The notes below the pieces were generated by a model that was not told where the DNA came from, made no database searches, and was given only the letters and a program-made list of their open reading frames with translations. A stretch of 5,987 nt of DNA. Source: Candidatus Desantisiibacteriota bacterium. Its GTDB lineage: Bacteria; JACRDZ01. The first letter of the stretch is position 1, and each line of letters starts with the position of its first letter. Below are positions 99 to 5,987 of this stretch, piece after piece. The translations under genes and the position numbers were made by a program. The stretch is from positions 1 to 5,987 of the forward strand of contig JACQWU010000081.1 of NCBI GenBank assembly GCA_016209155.1, in the 5' to 3' direction.

Positions 99-2630
99 TC
101 CTTTAATTGAAAAATTCCATATATAATCATTAAATAAATTATTTCCTGTTTGAGCTTTAACATCTCTTTTAACTTCAGCAATATATATCATTGTTTCTTT
201 AAGAGCAGGATCCGGAATAAATGTTGCTGTAGTATCAGTAAAAATAAAACTACCGGGTACAATATTATTTTTAATATCTTTTAATATGAATGTATTCATA
301 TTTATGCTTGTTGTATCTATCCTTTCTGAAAACACAGCCGTAGCAGATATATTTACAGGTAATCCTTTTTCCCCGTTTACAGGATATGTTGATATCACCT
401 GCGGCAATGTACGGTGAGTGGTAAATGTCCATACAAAATTTATTCCCATATTATTCCCGGCAATGTCTTTTATCCCTGTAGTCAACACTGCTTTATACAT
501 TCTATTGAGTTCCAATGGATTTGCCGGTGTAAATACTGCTATTTTATTATTGTAATCTATTCTGCCTTCAGCCATCAGCCTTCCGCTTTCAGAGCTGCTT
601 TCCGAATAAAATGTATTTGTATTTATGCTTTGCTCATCCATTTCTTCAAAAAATTCTACTTTTATAATAGAATCAACAGAAACATTTTCTCCGTTTTGAG
701 CAGGGCTGATTGCTTTAATTACCGGAGGAATATTGTCATATTTTATTTCTATTGGTACGGTTCTTCCTATAGTTGTACCATCTCCTATTTGTCCATAACT
801 ATTATTCCCAAAAGCCCATAGCGTATTATCTTTTTTTAAGGCAAGAGTATACCCCTTGCCGCAGGATACTTCCGCCCAGTCATTATCAATCCCGAGTTGT
901 ACAGGAATATTTTTATTTATTTTAGTCCCGTCACCCAATTGCCCGTTGTCATTTAATCCCCATGCCCATAGTGTGCCATTCGATTTTATTGCTGCTGTGT
1001 GCGCCTCGCCGGCTGCTGCTTTTACCCAGTTTCCATCACTCCCAACCTGTATCGGAATATTTCTGTTTATAGTTGTTCCATCCCCCAATTGTCCATACTT
1101 ATTCCATCCAAAAGTCCATAGCGTGCCGTCTCCCTTTATTGCCGCTGTATGAAAGCCGCAGGATACATCCGCCCAATTATTATCAGTCCCAATTTGTTCG
1201 GGAATATTTTTATTTATAGTTGTTCCATCCACCAATTGCCCATCAAAATTATATCCCCATGTCCATAATGTGCCATTTGCTTTTATTCCTGCTGTATGAT
1301 TTCCGCTTCCGGATATTTTTATCCAGTCTCTGCCAATACCAATTTGTTTCGGTGAATATCTCCCTGTCCATGTACCATCACCCAATTGCCCGTACCCATT
1401 ATCCCCCCAGCCAAAGAGCGTACTGTCTTTTCTTATTGCCATTGTATGATATCTGCCGCCGGATACTTTTAACCATTTATTGGTACCTATCTTAGTTGGG
1501 GAATATCTATATGATGTTGTGCCGTCTCCTAATTGCCCGCTTTCATTATATCCCCAGCAAAAAAGCGTGCTGTCACCCAAAAGCGCAATTGTATGACTTC
1601 CGCCGCCTGATATGTTTATCCATTTATCTTTTCCTATCCGGGTAGGGAAATATCGCCACACAGTTGTCCCATCCCCTAACTGCCCTTCTGTATTTCTTCC
1701 AAAAGTCCATAAACTGCTGTCTGATAATATTCCTATACTATGCATCTGACCGCAGACCATTTTATTCCAGCCCGGGATAGTATAAAAATTCCATGTATAA
1801 TCTCCCTGGAGACTATTTCCTGATAAATCTTTTATATTACTTCTAAGAGTAGCAGAATAACTTTTGCCTTTTACCAGATCACTAAACGGAATAAATATAA
1901 TTGTCGTATCAGTATAATTAAATGTTCCTCTGATTAAATCATCATTATCATCTCTTAAAATAAATGTCTCGGAATTTATAGTTGTTGTATCCATATACTC
2001 GGAGAATCTAATTGTAATATTAGCACCCGGGATAATTTCCTTTTCCCCATCTTCCGGATTTGTGGATAAAATCTGAGGCGCTATTATATCCGGTGTGGTA
2101 AATCGCCAGATATAATCCTGCGCGAGCATATTCCCCGTCTGATCTTTTACTCCGGTTGTAATTGTAACCGTATATGTAGTATTGGTTTCCAATGGACTTG
2201 CCGGTGTAAACGTCACTATTCTATTATTAAAATTTATTCTGCCTTCTGCATTCTGCCCTCTGCCTTCCAAACCGCTTTCAATGTAAAACGTATTATTATT
2301 TATACTCGTACTATCAAGCGGTTCACTGAATACAGCGGTAATAATTGTGTTTATCGGTATCCTGCTTGCTCCATTATCCGGACTTACCAGCACAATTTCC
2401 GGCGCTATTGTATCTCTTGTCGCAAAATTCCATACATAATTTTCCTGTAATGTATTTCCTGATATATCCTTTACTCCCCGTGTAATCACTCCTGTATAGT
2501 TACTGTTATTTCTTAAATTTCTAACCGGTATAAATCCGGCTGTGCTGTCCGAATAATTCACACTGCCGCTTAATGTGTAATTCCCGTATTTTAAAATAAA
2601 GGTCCCTTTATTTATGCTTGAACTATCCAT
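1..2630 (-). CDS. Downstream segment: Big_5 domains and RCC1 propellers (3'-partial)
   Basis: I translated this frame codon by codon from 2630 to the window edge: 876 codons with no stop, leaving the window inside an RCC1 repeat. The first ATG belongs to the conserved Big_5 motif EVMDSSSIN and is internal; the codons before it, back to a stop at 2661-2663, are out of frame. Content in order: rest of Big_5 C (to 2418), Big_5 D (2414-2094), Big_5 E (2093-1779), seven RCC1 repeats (1769-735), Big_5 F (740-417), Big_5 G (416-105), and the first RCC1 repeat of another propeller (98-1). RCC1 propellers commonly act as protein-binding platforms, and Big_5 domains as spacers or adhesive modules in secreted proteins. 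The ligand here is unknown. There is no membrane segment or catalytic motif. Confidence 0.85.
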   Translation of the reverse strand, partial: MDSSSINKGTFILKYGNYTLSGSVNYSDSTAGFIPVRNLRNNSNYTGVITRGVKDISGNTLQENYVWNFATRDTIAPEIVLVSPDNGASRIPINTIITAVFSEPLDSTSINNNTFYIESGLEGRGQNAEGRINFNNRIVTFTPASPLETNTTYTVTITTGVKDQTGNMLAQDYIWRFTTPDIIAPQILSTNPEDGEKEIIPGANITIRFSEYMDTTTINSETFILRDDNDDLIRGTFNYTDTTIIFIPFSDLVKGKSYSATLRSNIKDLSGNSLQGDYTWNFYTIPGWNKMVCGQMHSIGILSDSSLWTFGRNTEGQLGDGTTVWRYFPTRIGKDKWINISGGGSHTIALLGDSTLFCWGYNESGQLGDGTTSYRYSPTKIGTNKWLKVSGGRYHTMAIRKDSTLFGWGDNGYGQLGDGTWTGRYSPKQIGIGRDWIKISGSGNHTAGIKANGTLWTWGYNFDGQLVDGTTINKNIPEQIGTDNNWADVSCGFHTAAIKGDGTLWTFGWNKYGQLGDGTTINRNIPIQVGSDGNWVKAAAGEAHTAAIKSNGTLWAWGLNDNGQLGDGTKINKNIPVQLGIDNDWAEVSCGKGYTLALKKDNTLWAFGNNSYGQIGDGTTIGRTVPIEIKYDNIPPVIKAISPAQNGENVSVDSIIKVEFFEEMDEQSINTNTFYSESSSESGRLMAEGRIDYNNKIAVFTPANPLELNRMYKAVLTTGIKDIAGNNMGINFVWTFTTHRTLPQVISTYPVNGEKGLPVNISATAVFSERIDTTSINMNTFILKDIKNNIVPGSFIFTDTTATFIPDPALKETMIYIAEVKRDVKAQTGNNLFNDYIWNFSIKGYEWIKTASGTSHTIAIKSNGALFTWGANNFGQ
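105..740 (-). repeat. Two Big_5 domains F and G after the propeller
   Basis: F (740-417) opens NIPPVIKAISPAQNGENV, has EEMDEQSINTNTF and closes GIKDIAGNNMGINFVWTFTT; it is type a (GRIDYNN). G (416-105) opens LPQVISTYPVNGEKG, has SERIDTTSINMNTFILKD and closes DVKAQTGNNLFNDYIWNFSI; it is type b (GSFIFTDTTATFIP). F is close to domain D at DNA level: 507-568 and 2185-2246 align without gaps, including the start of the heptanucleotide array, so this pair looks like a duplicate of D-E. Confidence 0.85.
562..603. repeat. Degenerate 7-bp tandem array (six units) in Big_5 domain F
   Basis: Plus-strand units: CTGCCTT, CAGCCAT, CAGCCTT, CCGCTTT, CAGAGCT, GCTTTCC. The array is 42 bp long, so it keeps the frame. 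It encodes ESSSESGRLMAEGR between the strands NTFYS and IDYNN. The last two units are weak matches. Confidence 0.65.
735..1769 (-). repeat. Seven RCC1 repeats forming a complete beta-propeller
   Basis: Repeats begin at the Trp codons at 1769, 1622, 1475, 1325, 1175, 1028 and 878, each 48-50 codons. Consensus: W-x-x-[IV]-[SA]-x-G-x-x-H-T-x-A-[IL]-x-x-[DN]-G-T-L-[WF]-x-W-G-x-N-x-x-G-Q-L-G-D-G-T-T. Seven blades is the number in canonical RCC1 propellers, so this is a full closed ring. Repeats 1-3 share an R-Y-[FS]-P-x-x-I-G tail; repeats 4-6 share I-N-[KR]-N-I-P, pointing to two rounds of duplication. Repeat 4 has QLVDGTT in place of QLGDGTT, and repeat 5 lacks one residue in SCGFHT. Confidence 0.93.
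2239..2280. repeat. 7-bp tandem array (six units) in Big_5 domain D
   Basis: Plus-strand units: CTGCCTT, CTGCATT, CTGCCCT, CTGCCTT, then two degenerate units, CCAAACC and GCTTTCA. The first four differ from CTGCCTT by at most one base. It is 42 bp and in frame, encoding ESGLEGRGQNAEGR between NTFYI and INFNN, the same position and length as the array in domain F. Confidence 0.8.
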
Positions 2631-2824
2631 TACCTCTGAAATTTTATTTTTATTTCCGTATCAAGCGGAGTATTATTAACCCCGTTAACAGGGATAGAAG
2701 AAACAACCTGCGGCAGTGTTGTATCAAACAGTATTGGATCTGATACTTCTTCTGTAGTAAATGTCCACGCATAATTATTTCGTATTGCATTCCCTTCCAA
2801 ATCTTTCACTCCGGTAGTAACCAC
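2630..2824 (-). CDS. Short frameshifted fragment: end of Big_5 domain B and start of domain C
   Basis: The fragment starts at an internal GTG and ends at a stop created by a one-base loss. Its sequence is clearly Big_5: the domain-closing GVKDLEGNAIRNNYAWTFTT, then the next domain's LPQVVSSIPVNG and TPLDTEIKIKF. The same frame carries recognisable domain B sequence upstream of the GTG back to about 2900 (GNITYNNKIAVCTP), so the coding stretch is longer than the start-to-stop frame. It reads FQR-stop where all the other Big_5 domains have FSE or a close variant followed by a methionine- or leucine-aspartate pair. This is a bridge between two frameshifts, not an independent small gene. Confidence 0.6.
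   Translation of the reverse strand: MVTTGVKDLEGNAIRNNYAWTFTTEEVSDPILFDTTLPQVVSSIPVNGVNNTPLDTEIKIKFQR
2639..2641 (-). other. Frame break 3: probable one-base loss in a homopolymer (coding-strand T run)
   Basis: The coding strand reads ttt cag agg taa. Domains A and B have ttt tca at the same place, so one T is missing. Adding it gives KFSEVMDSSSIN. The change cancels frame break 2, so the frame before 2900 and after 2640 is the same. Confidence 0.75.
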
Positions 2825-2885
2825 TGCTGTATATGTTGTACTTGGTTCTAATATATTTACCGGTGTACATACCGCTATTTTATTA

Positions 2886-4523
2886 TTATATGTTATATTC
2901 CCCTGTATACTGTATACTGTCTACTGTCTCCTGTCTACTTATTTTAAATGTGGTCCTATTTATACTTGTACTATCCATTTCTTTTGAAAATGACACACTT
3001 ATAATTTTGTCCTGCTCAACACCTGATGCGCCATCCCCCGGATCAGTTGATACTATTCCCGGGATTATAGTCCCCGGCGCTGATGCTGTTGTAAAACTCC
3101 ATGTATAATCCTCTGCCATACCATTCCCCGCTAAATCCTTAACTCCGGCTGTTACTACCGCTTTATACGTTGTCCCAGGTGTAAGCAGACTTACCGGTGT
3201 AAATGTCGCCACTCTATTATTATATGAAATTATTCCATTTACACTTACACTTTCATATGCACTGACACTGACACTGTCACTGACACTCGAACTATCCATT
3301 TCCTCTGAAAATGTCACACTAATAATTTTATCCGGCGCAATCCTGACAGCCAAATTCTGCGGATCAGCAGTTATTATCTCCGGCAAAACAGTATCAATGA
3401 TTGGTTCCTGAAACGCGCTTTTTCTGTACCACATTACTTCATATCCCTGCATAATATATGACAGATCCAAATGTATATTTTGTATTTCATTTAAAAGACC
3501 GGGCTCTTCTTCAAGCTTTTCAATTTTCTTTATACAGTCAACTATATCATTTATACTTGTATCAATATCTTCTATACTGTTTTTCCCTCTATTTTTAATC
3601 AAATTTAATTTTTGTATAATATATTCTTTTTTATCGTATTCATCTGTCTCTAAATTTTCAACACTAAGTTCCGCCCTATCAATTATTTCATTAATATTTT
3701 CCTTAATCTCCATTTTTATTTCTGTTGTATTATAAACAAACCATTTGTCACCTGTGCGGTATTGCGTAAGCATCGTAAATAAATACGCGCCTTTTGCTTC
3801 CGGCAGGATATAACATTCATTTGTCTTTTTTATATCCGTACTATCCTGAACGCTGAAATTCCAGCGCAAATCACGAATCCCTGTCATCGTGCCATCCGTA
3901 CTTGTTAATTCCAGATTATCATCAAAATTTCCCCGCGCAATTAAATCACACGCTCTATCAGCTTTAATTTCCATGCTTAATGGTATCATCTCATACGGTT
4001 CTTCTTTTATTTTATCAGGTTCAAGATATTTTATTATCCTTTGCATAAGTAATTCGCTTTTTCTCCTGTTTTCTTCATCCAGATTATTCTCGGGTTCATA
4101 AGTAAGAATAACAGTCTTTCCTCTGCCATATTCATTTGTAACTATGGCCGGCCATATTTTTTCTTTTAATTTTTTATTATGAAATTCCAGTTCTGCTCTT
4201 GTTATTCCTTTTGTCGGATGCACTTTAAATATATCACTTGCAAGCTGCATTTCAATCCCGGGAGACCATGTAGTATCTGTAACTCTGAGCGCGAGATTTT
4301 CTATATCAGACTTATATCCGCCCGGATCAACTCCCAGAAGATCCTTAAAGAGTTTAGGATAAAAAGTATCGGGGTCTGTTTTTATAAATATTAATCCATC
4401 ACCCCTGTTAACGGCTTCTCCAAGTTCATACATACACTCTTTCCATTCTGAATTTTTAACAATCCTGCCGCATTTGTCACATTTCTTTTCATCCTTTTTT
4501 TGCGCGTTATCAAGCATGTACAT
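2886..4523 (-). CDS. Middle segment: amidotransferase-like fold, beta-sandwich, helical stalk and Big_5 domains
   Basis: This is an open frame of 545 codons. Its first ATG (MYMLDNAQKK) has no ribosome binding site and lies inside the Rossmann-like domain begun in the preceding frame, so it is not a genuine start. Residues 1-168 complete that domain (VNRGDGLIFIK, then AIVTNEYGRGKTVILTYE). Residues 180-272 form a beta-sandwich. Residues 274-360 are charged and helical. Residues 377-479 are a Big_5 domain (A), and 481-545 are the first half of a second (B). Translation stops at 2886 shortly after a heptanucleotide repeat, while the next frame continues domain B with GNITYNN and then a normal domain end. 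The stop is therefore caused by a one-base gain at 2900-2903. A CxxC pair (CDKCG, residues 15-18) is present without a clear second metal-binding pair. Confidence 0.8.
   Translation of the reverse strand: MYMLDNAQKKDEKKCDKCGRIVKNSEWKECMYELGEAVNRGDGLIFIKTDPDTFYPKLFKDLLGVDPGGYKSDIENLALRVTDTTWSPGIEMQLASDIFKVHPTKGITRAELEFHNKKLKEKIWPAIVTNEYGRGKTVILTYEPENNLDEENRRKSELLMQRIIKYLEPDKIKEEPYEMIPLSMEIKADRACDLIARGNFDDNLELTSTDGTMTGIRDLRWNFSVQDSTDIKKTNECYILPEAKGAYLFTMLTQYRTGDKWFVYNTTEIKMEIKENINEIIDRAELSVENLETDEYDKKEYIIQKLNLIKNRGKNSIEDIDTSINDIVDCIKKIEKLEEEPGLLNEIQNIHLDLSYIMQGYEVMWYRKSAFQEPIIDTVLPEIITADPQNLAVRIAPDKIISVTFSEEMDSSSVSDSVSVSAYESVSVNGIISYNNRVATFTPVSLLTPGTTYKAVVTAGVKDLAGNGMAEDYTWSFTTASAPGTIIPGIVSTDPGDGASGVEQDKIISVSFSKEMDSTSINRTTFKISRQETVDSIQYTGEYNI
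2900..2903 (-). other. Frame break 2: probable one-base gain in a G4 run (coding strand)
   Basis: Removing one G changes YTGEYNI-stop into YTGNITYNN, matching G-x-I-x-Y-N-N of the other type-a domains. It also gives the repeat loop 36 nt between T-F-x-x and G-x-I, exactly as in domains D and F. A change in heptanucleotide copy number is an alternative cause. Confidence 0.7.
2903..2937. repeat. 7-bp tandem array (five units) in Big_5 domain B
   Basis: Plus-strand units: CTGTATA, CTGTATA, CTGTCTA, CTGTCTC, CTGTCTA. In the coding direction the repeat is AGTAGAC, with variants. It lies in the same loop as the arrays in domains D and F but has a different unit sequence. It abuts the C4 run at 2900-2903 where the frame is lost. 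Confidence 0.85.
3242..3289. repeat. 6-bp tandem array (eight units) in Big_5 domain A
   Basis: Plus-strand units: CACTTA, CACTTT, CATATG, CACTGA, CACTGA, CACTGT, CACTGA, CACTCG. It is 48 bp and in frame, encoding a Ser-Val rich run (SVSDSVSVSAYESVSV). It replaces the usual S-I-N-x-x-T-F-x-[IL] strand of the domain as well as the loop that follows. Confidence 0.8.
3444..3704 (-). other. Charged helical, possibly coiled-coil stalk
   Basis: About 87 residues, rich in Glu, Lys, Asp and Ile, with almost no proline or glycine: KENINEIIDRAELSVENLET, a short break, then YIIQKLNLIKNRG and INDIVDCIKKIEKLEEE, ending HLDLSYIMQGYEVMWY. Hydrophobic residues recur at 3-4 residue spacing, as in a helical hairpin or coiled coil. 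It separates the N-terminal sandwich region from the Big_5 and propeller region. Confidence 0.5.
3708..3986 (-). other. Beta-sandwich domain, family not recognised
   Basis: Residues IPLSMEIKADRACDLIARG through CYILPEAKGAYLFTMLTQYR to WFVYNTTEIKMEI. The pattern of alternating hydrophobic strands, a conserved-looking WNFSVQD, and a G-x-Y-x-F-T strand suggests an Ig-like sandwich. It sits directly between the Rossmann-like domain and the helical stalk. Confidence 0.35.
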
Positions 4524-4615: not shown

Positions 4616-5987
4616 ATATTCTTTATTTATATTAGTATTCATACTTAATACAATTTCCGGCTGCGGTGGCGGAGGAGGTGTGGTATCAAGCGTAACTATT
4701 GCTGTCTCTGATACAAATCCGCTTGCGCCTGTCTGTGTATACGAAACAGAAGTAATTATATTCTCCCCTTCCTGCAATTTTAATAAATATTCAAATTTCC
4801 CTTCCGAATCCGCGTAAACAATTCCAACAAGTCTATTATTTTGATAAATTTTCACTCTGCTATAGGCCTCAGCTTCTCCCCGTACCCAGAAATATTCTTC
4901 ATTTGTTATATCCGTATCAAGCGCTATACTCGGCGCGCGCGGTATTGAAATACTCATCTGCCGGATATTATTATCCTCACAATATTCTCGAATAAAATTA
5001 TCCGGATCAACACTAATCTGTAATTGTATTTCTGCATTGTTTTGACCTGTAGGGGCTTGATTCATCAAGCCCGCCATCACCGCTAAATCAATTCTAAACT
5101 CAACACTGGCTTTGCTTCCATTTTCGATAAGTTCAGGGATAATTATTTCTCCGATTCTTCTTATTTCCTGTGGAGACGCAAAGCATTGCGTCTCTACTAC
5201 TATTCCCCTCGCCGGCAATTCCCTGTTTTTCTCCACCTCAACTTTTATTATCTTATAGCCATTCCCATATTCATCTATCTGCGTACTTCCCCATACAACA
5301 TTTTTTATTAATAAATCCGGCAGTTTAGTCCCATAATCAAAATACTCTTCCTGCTCACTTATAATACCGGATGAGCTCAATCTTGCCAGTATCTTATGCT
5401 TCCCCGGCAGGACAGTCGTCCCGCCTGTCAACCCCGGCTCTATTACGGTTGTATCAAGAATCATAACTCCGCTTGTATTTATACTTGCCTTTTTTATACT
5501 TGTAGTATCAAGTTTAATATTAAGTTCTCCCTGCTCATTTTCAAGCCCCCATATATACGTTTTTAATTCAACATTTTCTGTACCGTAAAAATATTCCCTG
5601 CGCTTAAGCTTAATTTCGCTTAAATTCATATTCCCGACTTCAAAATTCTGCATCCCGCCTGCCAGAAATTCATTGCTTACAGTATCCTGCATTAAATAGA
5701 ATAATTGATGTATCCCTGCTTCACCTGTATTCAAAACTCCATTTATGTTTATACTATTTTCACCTGCCGCGATTGTATATTCATTTGTATTAAACGGAAT
5801 GTTATTCATGGACGGACATATAATCCATGTAATACACTTAACCTGTACATTTTTTGAACTTTTTATATGTATACCGCCTTTTATCTCTTCACCGGGCTGA
5901 TATTTCTTTTTTTCAAGGCTGAAATACATCTGCTCAAGCTTTGTGCCTGATATGTCAAAAGCAGTACTGCCGGTTATCGTCTCATTC
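4391..5987 (-). CDS. Upstream segment: beta-sandwich, CARDB and Ig-like domains (5'-partial, frameshifted end)
   Basis: The frame is open to the window edge. Nineteen codons precede the first ATG at 5929 with no stop, ribosome binding site or other start, so this ATG (MYFSLEKKKYQPGEEI) is internal. Counting from it, residues 1-200 form two beta-rich domains, 203-329 a CARDB domain, 331-416 a bacterial Ig-like domain, 417-424 a proline-rich linker, and 439-470 the first beta-alpha unit of a Rossmann-like domain (NVLVYLGLDAKYDSGKIAGI). After about residue 470 the translation becomes lysine- and arginine-rich nonsense ending at 4391, while the other frame over the same DNA gives sensible protein. 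The last roughly 40 codons are therefore out of frame. The true product would continue into the 2886-4523 frame. Function is not recognised beyond an extracellular, adhesin-like architecture. Confidence 0.8.
   Translation of the reverse strand, partial: NETITGSTAFDISGTKLEQMYFSLEKKKYQPGEEIKGGIHIKSSKNVQVKCITWIICPSMNNIPFNTNEYTIAAGENSININGVLNTGEAGIHQLFYLMQDTVSNEFLAGGMQNFEVGNMNLSEIKLKRREYFYGTENVELKTYIWGLENEQGELNIKLDTTSIKKASINTSGVMILDTTVIEPGLTGGTTVLPGKHKILARLSSSGIISEQEEYFDYGTKLPDLLIKNVVWGSTQIDEYGNGYKIIKVEVEKNRELPARGIVVETQCFASPQEIRRIGEIIIPELIENGSKASVEFRIDLAVMAGLMNQAPTGQNNAEIQLQISVDPDNFIREYCEDNNIRQMSISIPRAPSIALDTDITNEEYFWVRGEAEAYSRVKIYQNNRLVGIVYADSEGKFEYLLKLQEGENIITSVSYTQTGASGFVSETAIVTLDTTPPPPPQPEIVLSMNTNINKEYKNVLVYLGLDAKYDSGKIAGILDSTHAKYTICTCLITRKKRMKRNVTNAAGLLKIQNGKSVCMNLEKPLTGVMD
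4523..4540 (-). other. Frame break 1 inside the Rossmann-like domain
   Basis: Coding sense passes from the frame ending THAKYTIC to the frame reading MYMLDNAQKK. The new frame has a stop only about 50 bases upstream, and the old frame is nonsense downstream, so the break is confined here. Sequence may be missing at this point. Confidence 0.65.
4682..4939 (-). other. Bacterial Ig-like domain followed by a proline linker
   Basis: Residues APSIALDTDITNEEYFWVRG, then VKIYQNNRLVGIVYADSEGKF, a LQEGENIITSVSYTQ strand and VTLDTTPP. This is the usual order of a cell-surface Ig-like repeat: opening strand, V.G.A turn, G-x-F strand, G-x-N-x-I strand, V-x-x-D-x-x-P-P end. A PPPPPQP linker (4681-4658) separates it from the Rossmann-like domain. 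Confidence 0.65.
5046..5072. repeat. In-frame palindromic element 2 in the CARDB domain
   Basis: The perfect 8-bp arms GGGCTTGA (5053-5060) and TCAAGCCC (5065-5072) flank the loop TTCA. The head CCTGTAGGGGC (5046-5056) shares the pattern CCTGTRGRGRC with element 1, in the same orientation. It is translated as GLMNQAPTG. Confidence 0.7.
5167..5197. repeat. In-frame palindromic element 1 in the CARDB domain
   Basis: The arms GTGGAGACGCAA (5170-5181) and TTGCGTCTCTAC (5186-5197) pair at 11 of 12 positions around the loop AGCA. The element begins with the head CCTGTGGAGAC, which matches element 2 at 5046. On the coding strand it is translated as VVETQCFASPQ without a stop or frame change. Confidence 0.75.
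5324..5987 (-). other. Two N-terminal beta-rich domains
   Basis: Alternating beta-strand sequence without recognised catalytic residues. The first domain contains KKKYQPGEEIKGGIHI, the strand-turn pattern of macroglobulin MG2-like or arrestin-like sandwiches (a proline-glycine turn before a hydrophobic strand). It ends near GGMQNFEVG (about 5636). The second runs through REYFYGTENVELKTYIWG to EEYFDYG (about 5330). A short imperfect palindrome at 5406-5425 falls in its loop. The family assignment is by eye and uncertain. Confidence 0.4.
5406..5425. repeat. Possible third imperfect palindrome in the N-terminal region
   Basis: GGCAGGAC (5406-5413) and GTCCCGCC (5418-5425) pair at 7 of 8 positions around AGTC. 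It is GC-rich against AT-rich surroundings and is translated in frame inside PGLTGGTTVLPG. It lacks the CCTGTRG head of the other two, so membership in the same family is doubtful. Confidence 0.35.

Follow-up and report, generated by a model that had tools for sequence, protein, structure and literature searches.

Organization of the giant gene and its tandem arrays

The window analysed here, 5987 bp in length, is an entire contig (C288) from the draft genome of an uncultured bacterium, which comprises 352 contigs and 3.08 Mb. Its minus strand carries a giant gene with seven Big_5 domains and an RCC1-like block, and the upstream part of the same gene encodes a Big_6 domain as well as a segment with homology to the CARDB region found in a paralog on contig C349. 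A search of the window protein against genome_contigs found no relative. The domains and the tandem arrays within them are as follows.

3087–3395, minus strand: Big_5 domain A (PF13205 match)
3260–3287, minus strand: hexamer array in the domain A loop, AGTGTC on the coding strand (TRF; lag-6 score 17)
2753–3065, minus strand: Big_5 domain B, split over two frames at its array (PF13205 pieces 2922–3065 and 2753–2920, in different frames)
2903–2939, minus strand: heptamer array in the domain B loop, TAGACAG/TATACAG on the coding strand (TRF; lag-7 score 22.5)
2418–2725, minus strand: Big_5 domain C, without an array, with a 1-bp shift near 2640 (AAATTTCAG) (PF13205 via a longer fragment)
2094–2414, minus strand: Big_5 domain D (PF13205 match; AlphaFold pLDDT 92)
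2237–2267, minus strand: heptamer array in the domain D loop, GGCAGAA on the coding strand (TRF; lag-7 score 14)
1779–2090, minus strand: Big_5 domain E, without an array (PF13205 match)
744–1778, minus strand, approximate edges: RCC1-like repeats separating domains E and F (PF00415/PF13540/PF25390)
417–737, minus strand: Big_5 domain F (PF13205 match)
560–590, minus strand: degenerate heptamer array in the domain F loop, GGCTGAA/GGCAGAA on the coding strand (lag-7 score 11.5; TRF 14-mer row 560–592)
108–410, minus strand: Big_5 domain G, without an array (PF13205 match)

Domains A, D, E, F and G matched PF13205 as whole domains above the curated Pfam cut-off, while B matched as two frame-split pieces and C through the longer fragment only. 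Arrays were detected with TRF and with an independent lag (periodicity) scan, and the chance level was set by 300 dinucleotide shuffles of the window, for which the 99th percentile of the best score was 10.5 at lag 6 and 11.0 at lag 7. Arrays A, B and D scored above all 300 shuffles. Array F is marginal when taken alone (11.5 against the 99% point of 11.0). Both methods therefore agree that the arrays proposed for domains A, B, D and F in the original prediction are real, with F borderline, and domains C, E and G, which it had classed as type b, indeed lack them. The spans given there for D (2239–2280) and F (562–603) extend ∼11–13 bp beyond the actual periodicity, and in A only 3260–3287 is strongly periodic, with an additional weaker 6-bp periodicity at 3233–3255. 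As had also been proposed, the arrays are not all copies of a single array: domain B repeats TAGACAG, domain A repeats the hexamer AGTGTC, and domains D and F repeat GGCAGAA or GGCTGAA.

The four arrays occupy one homologous loop

We aligned 39 Big_5 loops from this genome. All four window arrays lay between the motifs ‘NTFxI’ and ‘G-x-I-x-[YF]-N-N’, which bears out the claim that they share the loop preceding the N-N strand, and the length variation of Big_5 domains was mainly confined to that one loop. As the window holds no further lag-6 or lag-7 array with a score of 11 or more, every array of such strength in the window falls in this homologous loop.

A repeat was present in 11 of the 15 domains with the N-N signature (10 arrays and one palindrome) and in none of the 24 other domains, a count that is not an independent test because the N-N domains are related to each other. 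The N-N signature of the type-a domains is ruled out as the sole determinant by the four N-N domains that have no repeat, three of them in contig C47 and one in C349.

The AlphaFold model of domain D has a confident fold (mean pLDDT 92). The only stretch with a pLDDT below 50, residues 50–52, is inside the array-encoded loop between the strands at residues 43–47 and 58–63. In the model, the array loop is a low-confidence β-hairpin loop that is predicted to be flexible. Foldseek searches with this model returned the S-layer protein SbsC and LdtMt2, which confirms only an Ig-like fold.

The heptamers belong to a genome-wide repeat population

Repeats were then counted in a genome sample of 80 stretches totalling 771 kb. 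The contigs with the giant genes were picked by similarity to the window, so that these genes are over-sampled; this alters totals but not densities. There were 48 non-trivial 7-bp arrays, compared with between one and seven for each of lags 5, 6 and 8–12. At a stricter threshold, 28 lag-7 arrays remained and a dinucleotide shuffle gave none. Array density was highest in the giant paralogous genes, at 0.47/kb, lower in non-ORF DNA (0.21/kb) and very low in other ORFs (0.005/kb). Arrays of AGGCTGA, AAGACTG and AGCCTTC were found in non-ORF DNA too, so the unit family also concerns DNA outside genes. The heptamers are therefore part of a genome-wide population resembling short tandemly repeated repetitive (STRR) sequences, a likeness that the original prediction had drawn.

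The coding strand was purine-rich in 28 of the 29 in-gene arrays. The peptides that they encode accordingly contain no stops and are mostly charged, KAEGRRQ and EDRSQNSE being examples. Where a unit includes a stop, the in-frame occurrence is altered: CGT or CGA replaces TGA in both in-gene AGCAATG arrays, and array B reads GAG and TAT where the repeat would yield TAG.

Several of the heptamer arrays in non-ORF DNA stood as inverted pairs ∼15–65 bp apart that could form hairpins, an arrangement that was not seen among the in-gene arrays. Such sites were L070 (contig C40) 394–498, L097 (C330) 3656–3756, L130 (part of C290) 7281–7412, L143 2100–2232 and L023 (C233) 477–559. At L010 (C287) 8250–9046, 8-bp arrays (AGTTGGTG, TGACTCTC and TGAGTTGA) and a 6-bp array lie in one ORF of 3532 codons, and the habit thus extends beyond 7 bp. 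Among 290 genomes, AGAAGxC-type arrays were matched in 22 (with up to three mismatches), although a reversed control pattern also matches in some. In two other, unrelated genomes (L277 and L291), AGAAGxC arrays occur near position 1500 inside open frames of 658 and 868 codons.

GTAG palindromes within the same genes

The window gene also contains two palindromes of a different kind.

5049–5072, plus strand: GTAG-REP palindrome (GTAGGGGCTTGATTCATCAAGCCC), with the in-frame minus-strand translation GLMNQAPT; the homologous loop has heptamer arrays in C349 and C99
5173–5197, minus strand: GTAG-REP palindrome (GTAGAGACGCAATGCTTTGCGTCTC), read in frame as VETQCFASP; the homologous loop of C287 has the same family

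Assignment to the GTAG-REPs rests on the GTAG tag with a short perfect or near-perfect stem, on the many copies and on a RAYT gene in the genome. GTAG hairpins gave 81 matches in the 771 kb, some sites being counted on both strands, and the genome has six Y1_Tnp matches. At L009 (C349) 17838–18504, a RAYT-like Y1_Tnp gene (18020–18349) has GTAG palindromes on either side, the textbook REP-RAYT layout.

Different repeats fill the same loops in different paralogs

The flanks of every in-gene array were aligned with those of the paralogs. The Big_5 loop is filled by GGCAGAA/GGCTGAA, AGAAGAC, TAGACAG or the AGTGTC hexamer and, in C99, by a REP palindrome whose core (GTAGGGGCAGGTCTTGC) occurs six times in the 771-kb sample. 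Loops elsewhere in the giant proteins show the same mixture. In the ‘DGExxI...EKIYIEK’ loop, C285 and C45 carry heptamers, and C287 and C313 carry GTAG palindromes that differ from each other; the CARDB loop has the GTAG palindrome at 5049–5072 in the window and heptamers in C349 and C99; and the ‘RLYNP’ loop has AGCAATG in C349 and C313 and AGGCTGA/AGAAGAC in C285. The claim that the arrays are specific to type-a Big_5 domains is thus not borne out, since the homologous loops of other domains are filled likewise, some of them by GTAG palindromes. Genome G001, which belongs to a different family of this phylum, contains a CACGATT-type array; its loop aligns with the one that carries the arrays in C45 and C285.

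Co-location was evaluated with 2000 circular shifts, using automatically detected inserts only. We observed 20 coincidences, whereas the shifts averaged 5.0 and never gave more than 16. Outside Big_5 there were 12 coincidences (shift average 3.25, highest value 11), and at least five of these 12 differ in unit or kind. Some of the coinciding pairs have a common unit and may be inherited.

Some sister domains also share their arrays more closely than the surrounding sequence. In C287, a 31-bp array is 100% identical in four Big_5 domains (all six pairs), whereas its flanks show 63–76% identity overall and 55–73% at third codon positions; identical runs of 32–65 bp span the array. In C349, the near-identity of two domains begins shortly before the array and continues through the rest of the domain, whereas the sequence upstream of that point has diverged. 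From sequence comparison, these patterns suggest short-patch gene conversion or template switching, either of which would explain them.

Origin of the loop repeats

We consider it probable that dispersed short repeats repeatedly colonised permissive loops of the giant paralogous proteins. On this model, the window arrays would be members of a genome-wide set of dispersed repeats, consisting of 7-bp STRR-like arrays, a few 6- and 8-bp arrays and GTAG-REP palindromes, which may arise or insert at many places in the genome. Those surviving in genes are nearly all in presumably exposed loops of giant multi-domain paralogs (Big_5, RCC1, CARDB, MG2 and FG-GAP), where extra stop-free and mostly charged peptide would be tolerated. 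The same few loops are filled time after time by different repeats in different paralogs, and an existing repeat could spread to the corresponding loop of a sister domain, either through short-patch conversion or together with a duplicated domain. The arrays of one unit family in D, F, C287 and C349 may have a common origin, so that there were fewer independent events than there are arrays. What counts against colonisation is the higher density of arrays in the giant genes than in non-ORF DNA, an excess that would not be expected from simple tolerance by itself; the loops may gain from the repeats or may be favoured at the DNA level. We know of no mechanism for heptamer insertion.

A bolder version of this model, which we regard as tentative and rather less likely to hold than to fail, is that giant surface-type proteins of this phylum have ‘docking loops’ refilled by whichever short repeat spreads in the genome, with the fills moved between sister domains by short-patch conversion. 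Genome repeats would then provide new loop sequence by exchange rather than by slippage.

The original prediction had instead suggested loop diversification by slippage, a view that we extended to phase variation: as at contingency loci, slippage would alter copy number and so switch the protein on or off or diversify the loop. Array lengths do vary among homologous loops, and many bacteria have an excess of heptamer simple sequence repeats (SSRs), which have been tied to polymerase slippage (PMC4692102, PMC4679880). Furthermore, array B is exactly at a reading-frame switch, where losing one unit or gaining two would restore the frame. However, the window has further frame switches without arrays, near 2640 (AAATTTCAG) and near 4500, and rpoB of this assembly is also frameshifted (L175 1483–1535, in two frames, with conserved residues missing around the join). 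The switch at array B is therefore untrustworthy as evidence for phase variation, and assembly error or gene decay is as likely a source of the frame switches. Since steps of one or two heptamer units shift the frame, most slippage events would leave a truncated product of genes that encode up to 4746 aa; only three-unit steps (21 bp) keep the frame, the hexamer of A being exempt. Slippage is also disfavoured by the C287 arrays, which are the most conserved part of four sister domains, and by the presence in some of the same loops of GTAG palindromes, a kind of repeat that does not undergo slippage in the manner of tandem arrays. Diversification by slippage thus finds little support, and we judge a contingency-locus explanation unlikely.

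Two other explanations would place the cause in descent or in the DNA itself. A single ancestral array in an ancestral Big_5 domain, inherited through domain duplication with subsequent drift of the units, would account for the related units and similar 3′ ends in D, F, C287 and C349 (GGCAGAA, GGCTGAA and AGAAGAC) and for the N-N signature common to all array-bearing domains. But drift from AGAAGGC would not easily yield the TAGACAG units of B, the hexamer AGTGTC of A or the C99 palindrome, four N-N domains are without a repeat, and repeat kinds are mixed in the same way in loops of unrelated domains, which makes such an ancestry quite improbable. An insertion hot spot, whose target sequence or structure draws repeats to the loops, would fit the repeated hits of different repeats on one place and the excess density in giant genes over non-ORF DNA. 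Against this, the repeats sharing a site are as mechanistically unlike as tandem heptamers and REP palindromes, and an unsystematic comparison found no evident shared DNA motif in the loops of unrelated domains; we give this explanation very little weight. Overall, the loops resemble places where repeats found across the genome can land and be tolerated, and do not look like machinery built for slippage.

Comparison with known repeat systems

If colonisation is correct, the repeats provide a natural map of where a protein tolerates insertions and a chance to watch loop sequence arise from non-coding repeats. Tolerance, exchange and slippage can be directly tested against each other here. In a limited literature search, we found no description of unrelated kinds of repeat converging on the same homologous protein loops.

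The individual components have known counterparts. Heptanucleotide STRRs or long SSRs have been described in cyanobacteria (Calothrix and Nostoc), Xanthomonas (GGGAATC) and Beggiatoaceae (TAACTGA) (PMC4692102, PMC4679880). The arrays described here resemble these in their 7-bp units and many loci per genome, in being degenerate, with anything from two to many units, and in sometimes forming inverted pairs. The reported STRRs, however, are mostly intergenic with one main unit, whereas here several units occur in homologous loops of one paralog family. GTAG-REPs are GTAG-tagged palindromes found singly or as inverted pairs, some of them intragenic (PMC3733652). The present genome likewise has tagged palindromes and Y1_Tnp genes, one of which (C349:18020) is flanked by GTAG palindromes, but here the palindromes share loop positions with tandem arrays.

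Rickettsia palindromic elements, as cited in PMC3733652, are small in-frame repeats within genes likely encoding functional proteins. The similarity to the present case is the presence of small repeats in frame inside genes; the Rickettsia elements are palindromes in varied genes, whereas here tandem heptamers predominate and the repeats are restricted to one giant-protein family. Phase-variable SSR contingency loci, of Haemophilus and others, also have short tandem repeats in surface-type genes, and array B stands at a frame switch, but most of the arrays here are degenerate, which should slow slippage. While intragenic STRRs and REPs were already known individually, in this genome unrelated kinds of repeat converge on the same loops of several β-sandwich-type domains, and other genes are nearly free of them.
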